The translations under genes and the position numbers were made by a program. The notes under the pieces are model-generated. The model ran no database searches and was not told the origin of the DNA. It saw nothing but the letters and a program-made list of their open reading frames with translations. This document shows, piece by piece, positions 9,333 through 13,508 of a stretch of DNA of 64,000 nucleotides. Origin of the DNA: Ancylomarina sp. DW003 (GTDB taxonomy: Bacteria; Bacteroidota; Bacteroidia; Bacteroidales; Marinifilaceae); assembly GCF_029029505.1 (NCBI RefSeq), contig NZ_JAKJSD010000014.1:1-64000 (forward strand). Reading direction: 5' to 3'. Each line of letters starts with the position of its first letter. Positions within the stretch are counted from its first letter, which is position 1.

Positions 9333-10094
9333 TTAGACGATCTTATTTATTGTTGCAATATAAACAGCTTCCATAGCACTTTTTACATGTAATTTTTTGA
9401 TGATGTTCCGTTTATGAAACTTAATGGTTTCTTCTGAAATAAATAGTTTTTGAGACATTTCACAAGCTGAATTTCCTTTTATCATTAACTGTAATACATC
9501 TTTTTCTCTTCTTGAGAGGTGATTAATCTTTGTTGGTTTAAACTGCTTTCTTGTGCAGTCGTAATCATACCTTTCATCTTTATCCTGGAAAGTGATAAAA
9601 GTATTTCCTGGTTTTTCAGCAACAGATAAAGATACTAAGCAAAGAGCAAACCAAATATTACCTGTTTCAGTTAAAATTAGTGGTGTCAGTTTGTGGTTAA
9701 CTAGTATTTCACTTCCCGTATCTTTTCTTGTTAATCTAAAATCATATGAGATTGAAGCTTTGTCTCTTCTTTTAGTAGGTAAGTTATAAAAGAACTCAAA
9801 ACCTTTTTCATTCAACTCTAAAAGCATATCTAAATCATTCGAAGGAACTACCTCGTCGTAGAACTCATAACCCATTTTAAGAACTTCTTCTTGTTCATAT
9901 CCCGATAAAAATAAAGGGTCATCAGAGACATATAAAAATTCTTGCTTATTATAGTCAATAATGTAAAAGCCGAGGTTTATCAATTTTGAAACCGCTCGTA
10001 ATGCCATTATATATTGCTTGATCAGTTCGTAATTGTCATCTCCCAAATAACCATCTTTCCTTATTGGATCAAAAAATTTTTCTATTGCTATCAT
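9333..10094 (-). CDS. PAS-like sensor, LuxR-type transcriptional regulator
   Basis: 253 aa. Residues about 35-165 look like a PAS-fold ligand-sensing domain (GFYIIDYNKQEFLYVSDD start, then DFRLTRKDTGSEILVNHKLTPL and a final strand). The C-terminal 60 residues form a LuxR/GerE helix-turn-helix with LSRREKDVLQLMIKGNSA and SEETIKFHKRNIIKKLHV. No response-regulator receiver and no classical AHL-binding domain are visible. It is transcribed divergently from the GNAT gene at 10223, and the 128-bp space between them contains a 20-bp dyad (10148-10167) almost midway between the two start codons. That position suggests it controls itself and the GNAT-ThiF pair. Role inferred; ligand unknown. Confidence 0.85.
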   Translation of the reverse strand: MIAIEKFFDPIRKDGYLGDDNYELIKQYIMALRAVSKLINLGFYIIDYNKQEFLYVSDDPLFLSGYEQEEVLKMGYEFYDEVVPSNDLDMLLELNEKGFEFFYNLPTKRRDKASISYDFRLTRKDTGSEILVNHKLTPLILTETGNIWFALCLVSLSVAEKPGNTFITFQDKDERYDYDCTRKQFKPTKINHLSRREKDVLQLMIKGNSACEMSQKLFISEETIKFHKRNIIKKLHVKSAMEAVYIATINKIV

Positions 10095-10147
10095 ATCCTT
10101 CCTTTTTTGATTTTAATAACCTAATTATTTATACTGTCAACTATTAA

Positions 10148-10167
10148 AACTACACTTTTGAGGAGTT
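10148..10167. promoter_or_regulatory. 20-bp lux-box-like dyad, copy 1
   Basis: AACTACACTTTTGAGGAGTT, symmetric at 6 of 10 base pairs and identical at 16 of 20 positions to the better dyad at 11728-11747. It lies 53 bases from the LuxR-type start and 55 from the GNAT start. LuxR-family regulators typically bind 18-20 bp dyads, so this is a candidate operator for the divergent promoters. Confidence 0.5.
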
Positions 10168-10222
10168 GTATGCAAGGCGGAGAACATCAATATTAGAGAT
10201 GAACTAAAAATTTATAATCGAT

Positions 10223-10894
10223 ATGGATATTCTCTTAAATGACTTTCAAAATTTTTCGCTGTGGCTGATATCCCAAGAGTACTTACACGAGGTAAGTCGC
10301 TTTATTTTGCGGATTAATCATCAGGTGCATTTAAATTCAAATATTATTAATTATTCAGATCTGGTTAGAACTAAAAAAATGGATTTGGAAAGTTTCCCGA
10401 CTTCTTTTTTTTACGCTATAAAGAATCGAAAGAACGAAATTGTAGGGACGATAAAGGCTCAAAAATGGGATGGGAATTGTAAGCTTCCAATTGAGGATGA
10501 TTTTGAAATAAAAGTTGATGATGTATTAAATGAATTAAATTATAAGCCAAATGAAGTATGGCATATTGGAAGGTTTGCTATTGATCAGCAAAAAATAAAA
10601 ACGGATCCATTTTTAAGAAAAAATAGAGTCACCATATTAAAGTTATTAATGGCTAACGCCTTGCAACATATTTATGCTGAACGAACAAATATTCTTATTG
10701 CTGAATGTGATAAAAAGCTGTTTGACAAGCTACAGTTAATGGAAATCTATTCATCCCAAATTGGAGATTCGAAATATTATTTAGGATCAGAAACAGTACC
10801 AATGTTTAATACAGCTATAGGAGTAAAAAGGTTTGTAGAACAGAATAATGCATTGTGCTACCCTTACAGTCAGGAGGGCTTATATTCAGCCTAA
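10223..10894 (+). CDS. LuxI/FeeM-like GNAT acyl-transferase (candidate signal synthase)
   Basis: 223 aa, not a standard N-acetyltransferase. The central part resembles the autoinducer-synthase / N-acyl amino acid synthase branch of the GNAT fold: FFYAIKNRKNEIVGTIKA (about 62-79), a short LPIEDDFEI segment and EVWHIGRFAID (111-121). The last segment corresponds to the conserved W-E-x-S-R-F strand of LuxI-type enzymes, with His in place of Glu. Such enzymes join an acyl group from acyl-ACP or acyl-CoA to an amino compound to make a diffusible molecule. It sits 96 bases upstream of a ThiF-like gene on the same strand and is divergent from a LuxR-type regulator. The product cannot be read from the sequence; an ordinary GNAT acting on a protein or metabolite remains possible. 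Confidence 0.65.
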   Translation: MDILLNDFQNFSLWLISQEYLHEVSRFILRINHQVHLNSNIINYSDLVRTKKMDLESFPTSFFYAIKNRKNEIVGTIKAQKWDGNCKLPIEDDFEIKVDDVLNELNYKPNEVWHIGRFAIDQQKIKTDPFLRKNRVTILKLLMANALQHIYAERTNILIAECDKKLFDKLQLMEIYSSQIGDSKYYLGSETVPMFNTAIGVKRFVEQNNALCYPYSQEGLYSA

Positions 10895-10990
10895 ATTAAC
10901 AATTTGTCAAAACTAAACTAAGATGAAAGCTAATCTCATAGTTGATTGTATGAATTAGACTATTCATGATGTTTATAAATCTATCATATC

Positions 10991-11725
10991 ATGTATCAAA
11001 GAAATCGTATTTACATATCACCTGAGGAACAAGAGAAAATTAAGAATACAAGAATCCTTATTGCTGGAGCTGGTTTGGGAAGTAATATTGCAGAATGTGC
11101 TTTACGTTTGGGCTTCGAAAAAATTAGTATTTGTGATATGGATAATGTTGAACATTCTAACCTAAATCGTCAAAATTATACCTCAGTTGATATAGAAAAC
11201 TCAAAAGTTGAAAGCTTATTTTCCAGACTTAAATCTATCAATCCCAATGCAGAAATTCATTATCACAATGTTTTTTTGACAGAGAACAATTGTAGTGAAT
11301 ATATTGAGAATATTGACATAGCAATTAATACAATTGATTTTACATCTAATGCTCCATTCATTTTTGATGAGATATGTCTGAAGAATGGTATTCCCATATT
11401 GCACCCGTTTAATTTTGGTTGGGCAGGATGTGTATTTGTAATTAATAAATGGAGTGAAAGCTTAAACAGTATTGTTCAAAATGATATACAACCAGAGGTG
11501 AGTATTGTGGAGCATATTATTCAAAATTGTAAATCGGATGTTAATTTACTTTGGTTACGTGATGTTTTACAGACTTTTAAACAGGAAAAAGGAGAAAGTT
11601 CACCACCTCAATTAGCACCTGCATCTTGGATTACAGCAGGAATTTGTGCTAATCTTCTGTTCAAGCTCGCAAACAATAAACCGACAAAAATTTTTCCGAA
11701 CTTTTATCTTCTGACAGCTAATTAG
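10991..11725 (+). CDS. ThiF/MoeB/E1-like adenylyltransferase
   Basis: 244 aa, cytoplasmic. It has the E1-type Rossmann ATP site GAGLGSN (26-32), the canonical DNVEHSNLNRQ block (51-61) and the following Lys (about 72) that contacts ATP. Family members adenylate a C-terminal carboxylate, usually of a ubiquitin-like carrier, or of a small peptide or amino acid. No paired Cys-x-x-Cys zinc motif and no ubiquitin-like protein are visible nearby, so it is not a routine thiamine or molybdopterin gene. It follows the GNAT gene at 96 bases on the same strand and probably shares its transcript. The last residues contain PPQLAPASWITAGICANLL, typical of the family's C-terminal helix. The likely role is activation of a carboxylate in the product made by the pair (inference). 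Confidence 0.8.
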   Translation: MYQRNRIYISPEEQEKIKNTRILIAGAGLGSNIAECALRLGFEKISICDMDNVEHSNLNRQNYTSVDIENSKVESLFSRLKSINPNAEIHYHNVFLTENNCSEYIENIDIAINTIDFTSNAPFIFDEICLKNGIPILHPFNFGWAGCVFVINKWSESLNSIVQNDIQPEVSIVEHIIQNCKSDVNLLWLRDVLQTFKQEKGESSPPQLAPASWITAGICANLLFKLANNKPTKIFPNFYLLTAN

Positions 11726-11727
11726 AA

Positions 11728-11747
11728 AACTACACTTAAGGGTAGTT
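11728..11747. promoter_or_regulatory. 20-bp lux-box-like dyad, copy 2
   Basis: AACTACACTTAAGGGTAGTT is symmetric at 9 of 10 base pairs and starts 3 bases after the ThiF-like stop codon. It matches the dyad in the luxR-GNAT intergenic region at 16 of 20 positions, including the whole left half. Candidate operator for whatever is transcribed from about 11790 on. Confidence 0.55.
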
Positions 11748-11905
11748 GTTCTAAATCATAATCGAGCTTAATTTTGGAAGTAACAGAAGTCACTCTAAGA
11801 GTTGAAATATTCATCTAATGGTTTTTTGTATGTAGTTGTAAATGAAATCGTTTTAAAGTATTAAAGATGAGTGAAATGAATTCAAGAATGATTATGTTGT
11901 TCAAG

Positions 11906-11939
11906 AGAAAAGGCTGTTCTGTAAAGAATAGTCTTTTCT
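11906..11939 (+). terminator. 15-bp hairpin, probable terminator
   Basis: AGAAAAGGCTGTTCT pairs with AGAATAGTCTTTTCT (two G-U pairs) around a GTAA loop, ending in a T-rich tail. No annotated gene ends just before it, since the ThiF-like gene stops 180 bases earlier. It may therefore close a short transcript that begins downstream of the dyad at 11728. A 32-codon frame (11867-11965) crosses the hairpin and is doubtful. Confidence 0.6.
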
Positions 11940-12007
11940 ATTTAAAGGTGATAATAAACAATTGAAAATCGATTATCGCATGTGCCAATTAGTAAATCTA
12001 TTTAAAT

Positions 12008-12664
12008 ATGATAAAGCAGAGTGGAGTAGTTGAAGATTTTATAGATAGTACAAAAATGCTTCTTGAGGAGAGTGTTAGAAATCTTAAAATAAAAAGTTCT
12101 GTACGTTTAATGGGGTATAATGAGATAAAGCTTAGCGAAGCTAAATCTTTACTTTTAATATTGGAAGAATTACATAATGATATAAAGAAGAAGAGTTTAT
12201 ATAACTATCATGAGAAAGATGATTTTTTGAAAATATATGAGCTTACAAATCAGAATTATTTAGATCTAATAACTATATCTAAAATAGCGTTTAAAAAAGA
12301 TATCTACGTTCAGCAAATTCTAAAGCTCAATTTAATTCGTAAAAAAAGCTTTAGTGGATGGTTTGCTCAAGCTTTAGAGTTCTGTAGCATTTTAATTTCA
12401 AACCCCAGTTATATCATAAAGCTTGAAGAATTTGGTCAAAGATTAAATGATATACACCAATTGAAGACAGAAATTATAGAAACTAAAAAAAAATATGAAG
12501 AGTATAAGAATGAATTAGAGGATACCCAGCAAAATCTTCAAATGCGAGATGAGATTTTAGATTTACTAGACGAATGGGTACATGATTACCGAAAGATTGT
12601 AAGAATAGCTTTGAAAAATAAACCTGAACTGTTGCCCACCTTGAGATTAATTAAGGAATGTTAA
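12008..12664 (+). CDS. Hypothetical helical/coiled-coil protein
   Basis: 218 aa, unrecognised. No signal peptide or membrane segment. Composition is rich in Lys, Glu, Leu and Ile, and it appears almost wholly alpha-helical. A clear coiled coil runs at about residues 145-185 (heptad-like LNDIHQLKTEIIETKKKYEE), followed by a short C-terminal helix with LLDEWVHDYRKIVRIALK. It lies downstream of the GNAT-ThiF pair on the same strand, separated by 282 bases that contain a dyad and a terminator-like hairpin, so it is probably a separate transcript. It could be an effector of that unit or unrelated. Confidence 0.6.
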   Translation: MIKQSGVVEDFIDSTKMLLEESVRNLKIKSSVRLMGYNEIKLSEAKSLLLILEELHNDIKKKSLYNYHEKDDFLKIYELTNQNYLDLITISKIAFKKDIYVQQILKLNLIRKKSFSGWFAQALEFCSILISNPSYIIKLEEFGQRLNDIHQLKTEIIETKKKYEEYKNELEDTQQNLQMRDEILDLLDEWVHDYRKIVRIALKNKPELLPTLRLIKEC

Positions 12665-12719
12665 CCTGAATATTGATATTATTTATCAACTTTGTCAGGA
12701 ATCAATTTATCAATTAAAC

Positions 12720-13508
12720 ATGCAAGAATTCAATTCAATTAGCATTCTATCCTGTGGATGGTTAGGAGAATCTCTCTCTTTAAATTTGTTGGGAAAAGGT
12801 TTCAAAGTAAAAGGAGCTACAACTAATCTTGATAAGAAAGAACGCCTGCTCAAGCATGGAATTGAAGCTTATCAGCTGAGATTTGAGGATTTGAATGAAG
12901 ATATGAAGTCCTTTTTGAATTCAGATATACTGGTTCTGAATTTAACGATCAAGGATATCGAACTCTATAGACAATTCTTGCCAGTGCTTGAAAAATCTCC
13001 TATTAAAAAATTGATTTTGGTTAGCTCAACGGGCGTTTATAAGAATTCAGCAAAACCTGTTGATGAAAACTCTGACTTAAGTGAATCTCCATGGGTAGAA
13101 ATTGAGAATTTGTTGAAAGATAATGCCAATTATCAAACGACTGTTTTAAGGTTTTCAGGCTTATTTGGAGGTAATCGTAAACCTGGCAACTTTCTATCAG
13201 GTAAGAAAGTAAAAAATGCTGATGCGCCTGTGAATCTTATTCATCGCGATGATTGTATTAAAATTATCAATGAAATTATTGTCCAGAATATGTGGAATGA
13301 GGTTTTCAGTTGTACTGCTGACACACATCCATCAAAGAAAGAGTTTTATTCGAAAGCAGCTGATGTAATTGGGGTTGAACGTCCAATATTTGATGAGGAG
13401 GAGGGAAGCCATTCTTCGTTTAAACTCATCACAAACGATAAGCTTAAAAGAAGATTGAATTATGAGTTTATTCATCCTGATTTGATGAAAGCTTTGGAAC
13501 TACTTTAA
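12720..13508 (+). CDS. NAD(P)-binding SDR-type epimerase/oxidoreductase (YeeZ-like)
   Basis: 262 aa with an N-terminal Rossmann nucleotide-binding stretch ILSCGWLGESLSLNLLGKG (about 8-26). Then come the strand-and-loop LVSSTGVYKNS and a VLRFSGLFGGNRKPG segment, typical of the extended SDR branch that includes E. coli YeeZ. The usual catalytic Tyr-x-x-x-Lys is not evident, so the reaction is unknown. Its 3' end overlaps the convergent methyltransferase gene by 9 bases. ATG start at a normal distance after the upstream hypothetical gene. Confidence 0.75.
   Translation: MQEFNSISILSCGWLGESLSLNLLGKGFKVKGATTNLDKKERLLKHGIEAYQLRFEDLNEDMKSFLNSDILVLNLTIKDIELYRQFLPVLEKSPIKKLILVSSTGVYKNSAKPVDENSDLSESPWVEIENLLKDNANYQTTVLRFSGLFGGNRKPGNFLSGKKVKNADAPVNLIHRDDCIKIINEIIVQNMWNEVFSCTADTHPSKKEFYSKAADVIGVERPIFDEEEGSHSSFKLITNDKLKRRLNYEFIHPDLMKALELL

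Follow-up and report, generated by a model that had tools for sequence, protein, structure and literature searches.

Introduction

What do an acyltransferase of the GNAT fold and a ThiF/E1-type adenylating enzyme make when they are encoded together beside a LuxR-type regulator in a member of the Bacteroidota? The question is raised by a locus of Ancylomarina sp. DW003 that lies within a 64-kb stretch of contig NZ_JAKJSD010000014.1, the whole of which we call the window. The three genes (the 'trio') recur as neighbours in families other than the Marinifilaceae as well, and they share a conserved operator with the consensus CTACAC-N4-GTGTAG. We favour the view that they form a self-activating autoinducer circuit and put the probability of this reading at roughly 0.65. 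Gene conservation and co-occurrence, operator conservation, operator–promoter geometry and family assignment were computed.

A first-pass annotation, made by a model from the letters alone, had already proposed a signalling unit here, and its set of three genes and their divergent arrangement were confirmed by gene calls, domains and motifs. The regulator gene (positions 9333–10094, minus strand) encodes 253 amino acids with a GerE domain at the C-terminus (Pfam GerE, expect value (E) 3.5e-18) and possibly a PAS-like domain at the N-terminus. Across a divergent gap of 128 bp lies the gene of a GNAT-fold N-acyltransferase of the FeeM/exosortase-acyltransferase type (10223–10894, plus strand, 223 amino acids), which contains the segment EVWHIGRFAID. 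It is followed on the same strand by the gene of a ThiF/E1-type adenylating enzyme, a candidate cyclase (10991–11725, 244 amino acids; PF00899, E 3.3e-37), in which the motifs GAGLGSN and DNVEHSNLNRQ are present.

Conservation of the three genes

The GNAT was found in 4 of 58 relatives, in 14 of 395 genomes of the phylum (E ≤ 0.01), in 12 of 397 genomes of a family, f31, taken as Flavobacteriaceae, and in 23 of 197 genomes of another family, f30. Gene order common to genome G877 and a Riemerella anatipestifer record suggests that f30 is Weeksellaceae. Eleven of the phylum matches were strong, and the three weak ones (G127, a protein of 620 amino acids, G166 and G320) were dropped before counting. 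Removal of overlaps left a final set of 46 genes in 44 genomes.

The expectation of the first-pass annotation that the three genes would be neighbours in related genomes is borne out, as a LuxR gene of one family is divergent from the GNAT gene at 44 of the 46 loci. It is absent at the remaining two, L043 and L108, where the GNAT–ThiF pairs have diverged (their ThiF is 40–41% identical to the solved chain described below) and perhaps represent a second subtype. ThiF proteins of a single subfamily occur in 43 of the 44 genomes. Their genes lie within the fetched stretch at 42 of the 46 loci; those of G985 and G961 stand at a distance of about 11.5 kb and those of G302 on other contigs. In G959, where the contig breaks off some 0.45 kb past the LuxR gene, none was found. 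In the f30 sample, 23 genomes have the GNAT, 24 the ThiF and 22 both, which leaves one genome with the GNAT only, at a contig end, and two with the ThiF only. In five GNAT-negative genomes the ThiF-type proteins were all of a more distant kind (best E 3.5e-17), and within the GNAT genomes other ThiF-type proteins occur separately at E ≥ 1e-18.

The place of the ThiF gene changes: it follows the GNAT gene in Ancylomarina and elsewhere stands mostly on the far side of the LuxR gene, often overlapping or touching its end. The trio is present in four of five Ancylomarina genomes. The LuxR protein of the window is 81–89% identical to those of three other Ancylomarina genomes and 35–42% identical to 40 relatives of other families, and the GNAT of one Ancylomarina genome (G004) is 82% identical to that of the window.

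Two further loci, L175 in G875 and L176 in G877, carry ThiF and LuxR genes with no GNAT found, perhaps through natural loss of the acyltransferase. A ThiF–LuxR pair in the gene order of G877 also stands in the Riemerella anatipestifer record NZ_CP081938.1 (L198; Weeksellaceae). This record is labelled as a plasmid, yet the pair is flanked by chromosomal-looking mnmG, aroQ, gldH and ybeY, which is perhaps a matter of assembly or labelling.

The common operator

The first-pass annotation had pointed to one dyad in the divergent promoter, AACTACACTTTTGAGGAGTT, at 10148–10167 (20 bp). Its symmetry is unremarkable, with 6 of 10 positions paired and another 20-mer in the same gap scoring equally, and we therefore rejected symmetry as evidence by itself. 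The dyad is nevertheless a copy of the conserved operator. Its recurrence within the window, across the Ancylomarina genomes and ahead of the corresponding gene in other families sets it apart from chance. In the present account it forms part of operator 1 (10148–10169, core CTACACTTTTGAGGAG at 10150–10165), an element without strand. A second operator (11728–11749, core CTACACTTAAGGGTAG at 11730–11745, likewise without strand), which is separated from the stop codon of thiF by two bases, had been overlooked.

A pattern drawn from these same two sites matches the 64-kb window three times, against 0.07 expected; the matches fall at the two places, one of them being read on both strands. With at most one mismatch, the motif stands at both places in all four trio-bearing Ancylomarina genomes and nowhere in the one without the trio, in a scan in which a reversed control also matched four of the five genomes, once or twice each. 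Two further motif places each in G002 and G003 are at about the level of this control (up to two per genome). Strong copies away from the trio were seen at L017 (G003:C24:11099) and L020 (G002:C4:3265), and such sites are no commoner than those of the reversed control.

Exact dyads are found at 62 sites in 27 of the 44 trio genomes and at none in 29 trio-negative genomes, where the reversed pattern gives 6 and 3 sites, respectively. Inside the trio locus lie 54 of the 62, in 25 of the 44 genomes by manual count, and G002 and G696 have theirs elsewhere; the 54 do not include the sites at the Ancylomarina trios, which are degenerate. The trio-negative genomes were chosen for lacking the GNAT; 15 come from f30, of which 14 have no LuxR of this family and one (G833) does. 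Because this control mixes absence of the regulator with absence of the synthase, an association of the dyad with the one is not separable there from an association with the other. LuxR genes that stand alone point to the regulator as the probable partner of the dyad (see below).

Upstream of the LuxR gene the best match reaches at least 10 of 12 positions at 42 of the 44 trio loci, compared with 0.9% of shuffles and 28 of 442 other genes in the same loci. The reversed pattern does so at 0 of 62 LuxR genes (44 at trio loci, hence 0 of 44 there, and 18 without a synthase). Matches of this quality occur in 43 of the 44 LuxR/GNAT gaps, often twice, in agreement with the earlier expectation that dyads would be present in related genomes. 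A map of 136 sites, with categories counted manually, places 65 in the LuxR/GNAT gap, 24 before ThiF, 34 at the end of the GNAT gene, 4 behind ThiF (Ancylomarina) and 9 elsewhere. The sites before ThiF, in 23 loci, lie 35–52 bp ahead of its start, with one at 86 bp. Those at the GNAT end, in 20 loci, face the next gene; 18 of the 34 are within 95 bp of it and the rest up to 521 bp away. This pattern implies common control of gnat, thiF, the regulator's own gene and often the gene after GNAT, for which this LuxR protein is the likeliest candidate. We are close to certain that the sites define one regulon with the operator CTACAC-N4-GTGTAG.

Promoter geometry and a predicted small transcript

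The position of the operators relative to promoters is equally regular. The sequence TAnnTTTG, which we take to be the consensus of the −7 box of Bacteroidota, starts 30 bp (61 dyads) or 31 bp (7 dyads) from the dyad centre, in total at 68 of 169 dyads. Tandem dyads are spaced by 38 bp in 38 of 49 pairs, which explains a further 38 matches at 68 bp. All other offsets give 0–4 matches, except offset 5 (24 matches), at which the box overlaps the dyad end. The reversed motif gives none at 30–31 bp, and its single peak, of 16 matches, adjoins the dyad at offset 7. When the loci were thinned to 27 whose LuxR proteins are less than 75% identical, the box remained at 30–31 bp in 28 of 69 dyads and 20 of 27 loci. 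The operators would be centred about 41 bp before the predicted transcription start, a geometry like that of class-II activators.

This arrangement bears on the possibility that the LuxR protein is a repressor, which would sit on the operators without ligand and be released by the product, or would act either way. Some LuxR-type regulators repress, and the sign of regulation is not readable from sequence. The fixed distance of 30–31 bp between operator centre and −7 box fits activation, however, as do the tandem operators, which do not cover the box but lie 38 bp farther upstream. We consider repression improbable.

In the window, operator 2 is followed by a box of this type, TAATTTTG, on the plus strand (11769–11776), 31 bp from the operator centre. 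The offset is 31 bp in all four trio-bearing Ancylomarina genomes; three have the full TAnnTTTG, and the last letter differs in the fourth. A small transcript is predicted to run from this promoter (11784–11945, plus strand, with a putative start point) to a conserved hairpin resembling an intrinsic terminator, with arms at 11906–11919 and 11926–11939. Alignment of this stretch of about 160 nt from the four Ancylomarina genomes gives 30 consensus pairs, five of which show a double change that keeps the pair. The pairs form two hairpins, the terminator-like one being the second; in the first, one sequence loses some of the pairs. Assignment to an Rfam family was rejected, since the stretch has no match up to E 1, and a small open reading frame was discarded as well, none being common to the four aligned sequences when these were read by eye. 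The transcript is possibly a regulatory RNA.

The two enzymes

The GNAT proteins share the conserved motifs HIGRFA, AECD.KL and YLGSET.P across 46 sequences. At E ≤ 0.01, 27 of the 46 match FeeM (best 6.4e-11) and 33 the exosortase-associated acyltransferase, whereas none matches LuxI (PF00765) or any ordinary acetyltransferase model. Taken by itself, the window GNAT gives E 0.017 with Pfam FeeM and 2e-4 with NCBIfam exosort_acyl, and no match to PF00765 at E ≤ 1. The earlier description of this protein as LuxI/FeeM-like thus stands for FeeM, while membership of LuxI is rejected. Profile models also favour the FeeM/exosortase type over ordinary acetyltransferases, a comparison that the first-pass annotation had named as a test, although a Foldseek search with a poor model points otherwise. 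Among solved proteins the GNAT has no relative by sequence (best E 0.24).

For the ThiF, the closest solved proteins are PDB entries 9egb, 9egc and 9egd, which belong to the same subfamily (E 2.7e-87, 50% identical; relatives of the window protein reach 71%). These entries show that the subfamily has already been studied, and no paper naming them was found in our literature search. Residues G26, G28, G30, D49, D51, R60, K72 and D116, presumably the nucleotide-binding ones, are kept in 43–44 of 44 sequences. The PF00899 match places the protein in the ThiF/MoeB/E1 superfamily, and its scores fall short of the equivalog cut-offs (PRK08644, 109.5 of 159 bits; adenyl_thiF, 93.5 of 275; moeB, 56.6 of 377). 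Judged by these curated cut-offs, it is probably neither a thiamine ThiF nor a MoeB orthologue.

Such scores leave room for a simple explanation: an ordinary acetyltransferase and a MoeB/TcdA-like housekeeping enzyme might have come to lie beside a LuxR gene by chance. The window GNAT is below every curated cut-off, the ThiF reaches the superfamily PF00899 only and no equivalog, and the Foldseek matches of the poor GNAT model include dopamine, polyamine and other acetyltransferases. This explanation is contradicted by the co-occurrence of GNAT and ThiF in 43 of 44 genomes across families, by the operators common to the genes and by the presence of separate, other ThiF-type proteins (E ≥ 1e-18) in the same genomes. 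As far as sequence can tell, chance neighbourhood is extremely improbable.

The regulator and its copies without a synthase

All 44 LuxR proteins of the trio loci contain a GerE domain, and at E ≤ 0.01 none of the 44 matches the autoinducer-binding domain PF03472. The protein had been read as a PAS-LuxR regulator; its LuxR/GerE part is sound, while for the PAS part the window protein has no match at E ≤ 1 and the group gives PAS_3 in 4 and PAS_9 in 1 of 44. The nearest solved protein is 3clo.

The LuxR family (E ≤ 1e-30) occurs in 60 of the 197 f30 genomes, 25 times together with GNAT or ThiF and 35 times with neither. Eighteen loci without an adjoining GNAT or ThiF gene were fetched: 16 come from LuxR-only genomes, and G877 and G961 contribute one each, as a second copy of the LuxR gene. 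Each of the 18 carries the operator within 400 bp, with at least 10 of 12 positions matching, and 15 of them match at 12 of 12. These synthase-less LuxR genes resemble LuxR solos.

Neighbouring genes and natural-product clusters

The gene after GNAT varies between loci while the trio and its operators persist. Genes for NHLP leader peptides (7 loci), LanB/LanC (5), non-ribosomal peptide synthetases (NRPS; 4) and C39-type ABC exporters (8, by a text motif) were found near 17 of the 48 fetched loci, which include two ThiF-only contigs of G302. At L106, L110, L113, L117, L131, L132 and L134, NHLP-type leader-peptide genes stand beside LuxR/GNAT, mostly with a C39-type ABC exporter. Near the synthase-less LuxR genes such natural-product genes were seen at 1 of 18 loci, against the 17 of 48, in a biased test: the profiles were taken from trio loci and, like the C39 text motif, favour these, and the control covers 234 kb compared with 847 kb.

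These neighbourhoods suggest another role for the trio, that of a biosynthesis module under local control. GNAT and ThiF would then make or tailor a secondary metabolite (an N-acyl amino acid, an oxazolone or a modified ribosomally synthesized and post-translationally modified peptide (RiPP)), and the LuxR protein would answer an unrelated cue such as redox state, light or stress. According to the review PMC12250964, ThiF-like enzymes act in RiPP pathways, and passages of PMC12856293 call the physiological role of oxazolones unsolved. However, 31 of the 48 loci, that of the window included, have no natural-product hallmark in the fetched stretch, the output gene differs between loci whose trio and operators are constant, and LuxR genes without an adjoining synthase keep the operator. 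A signal fits these three observations better than a fixed product, and we regard the biosynthesis module as rather unlikely.

The span of the first-pass annotation took in a fourth gene, which encodes a PQLLE-family protein (12008–12664). This was not borne out: the gene is missing at the G003 locus and clusters with no near-trio gene outside the genus, and it is ruled out as a member of the circuit. It adjoins the trio in the other three of the four trio-bearing Ancylomarina genomes. In G001, acn was not found in a 16-kb stretch around the epimerase gene, so an empty site is not shown there.

Comparison with known systems

The LuxI/LuxR system of Pseudomonadota likewise has an acyl synthase of the GNAT fold adjoining a GerE-type regulator, a dyad of 16–20 bp at an activator position, regulators without a synthase in other strains, and linkage to natural-product clusters; trios of the window type show both the adjacency and the dyad. 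Clusters linked to luxR are the subject of PMC5872303 and LuxR solos that of PMC10134790. Unlike LuxI/LuxR, the trio is without PF00765 (0 of 46 GNAT proteins) and PF03472 (0 of 44 regulators), has an additional ThiF and a CTACAC-N4-GTGTAG operator with a Bacteroidota −7 box, and resides in Bacteroidota. The circuit probably works like LuxI/LuxR, of which it is not a member by the tests for LuxI and for the autoinducer-binding domain.

The nearest known chemistry is that of OxzAB, TyzACB and TrzAS, with which the trio is compared by pathway description. In these pathways an N-acyltransferase produces an N-acyl amino acid, from which a ThiF homologue forms an oxazolone by ATP-dependent cyclisation, and models of TyzA and OxzA resemble FeeM and acyl-homoserine lactone synthases (passages of PMC10404671 and PMC12856293). 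N-acyl tyrosine clusters with a ThiF gene appear in passages of PMC12479983. The FeeM-like N-acyltransferase of oxazolone synthases has its counterpart at the level of the GNAT group, and a ThiF gene is linked, its product being a candidate cyclase. The known pathways also possess a flavin-dependent oxidase (a nitroreductase, separate or fused to ThiF), which was not found among the five scanned genes of the window, and the passages on them describe no LuxR-type partner or operator. Passages of PMC12856293 treat the role of bacterial N-acyl oxazolones as unresolved and remark on their resemblance to acyl-homoserine lactones.

With FeeM and the PEP-CTERM exosortase-associated acyltransferase the GNAT group shares its sole recurrent family matches (27 and 33 of 46); the window GNAT differs in scoring below both cut-offs and in being paired with ThiF and LuxR. 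For ThiF, the likeness is to 9egb, 9egc and 9egd, as members of one subfamily. No title or abstract describing the trio was found in searches of an open-access library, which is weak evidence of absence.

Proposed mechanism

By analogy with OxzAB, TyzACB and TrzAS, the GNAT would acylate an amino acid or a similar amine. The ThiF would then adenylate the free carboxylate of the acylated product and close a ring, giving an oxazolone, a lactone or a lactam. The window pair fits acylation and cyclisation without a flavin oxidase, which makes a saturated oxazolone plausible, as well as a lactone or lactam. We infer that the LuxR-type protein has this cyclised compound as its ligand and that, on its CTACAC-N4-GTGTAG operators, it would activate its own gene together with those of the synthase and of local outputs; operator binding by this protein and a function between cells are likewise inferred. 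In the window, the sole other operator-driven output seen would be the small RNA-like transcript behind thiF. That the signal is a cyclised N-acyl amino acid seems to us an even bet.

Several observations weigh against this autoinducer circuit. Some loci lack the LuxR neighbour (L043 and L108), and at L175 and L176 no GNAT was found. The window GNAT is under the curated cut-offs (FeeM, 15.4 of 27 bits; exosort_acyl, 20.8 of 112). The AlphaFold models, built on three-sequence alignments, are poor (mean pLDDT, a per-residue confidence score, of 51 and 45) and too weak for claims about the fold; Foldseek with the weak GNAT model ranks FeeM (2g0b_C) fifth, with ordinary acetyltransferases above and below. 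In the N-terminus of the LuxR protein no ligand pocket was identified, and no flavin oxidase is among the five scanned genes of the window (9333–13508), to which that scan was limited. Around operator 1 of the window, TAnnTTTG is missing from the standard distance and from the whole 90 bp on either side. Exact sites outside trio loci number eight, close to the six of the reversed control, and a distant regulon is not shown. Finally, the loci that yielded the operator consensus are also those used for the counts, and the weight therefore rests on the shuffled and reversed controls.

Taken with the evidence above, the signalling reading that the first-pass annotation had put forward is nonetheless supported. 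The profile matches of the GNAT group are not to ordinary acetyltransferases, the genes are neighbours in related genomes and the dyads are present there; the nature of the product and its sensing are proposed from knowledge of the families.

Significance

The GNAT and ThiF, under an operator common with a LuxR-type regulator, would tie oxazolone-type chemistry to gene control. In its widest form, the proposal is one of quorum sensing in Bacteroidota: a FeeM-like acyltransferase and an E1/ThiF cyclase would make a cyclised N-acyl amino acid, for instance an oxazolone, as autoinducer for a LuxR protein that lacks the classical autoinducer-binding domain, synthase-less LuxR proteins would listen in, and natural-product clusters would be a frequent output. 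For this wide form we see the chances as evenly balanced. The circuit also provides a way into RiPP and NRPS clusters of Flavobacteriia that are possibly silent, and it suggests that strains with the LuxR gene only may eavesdrop.

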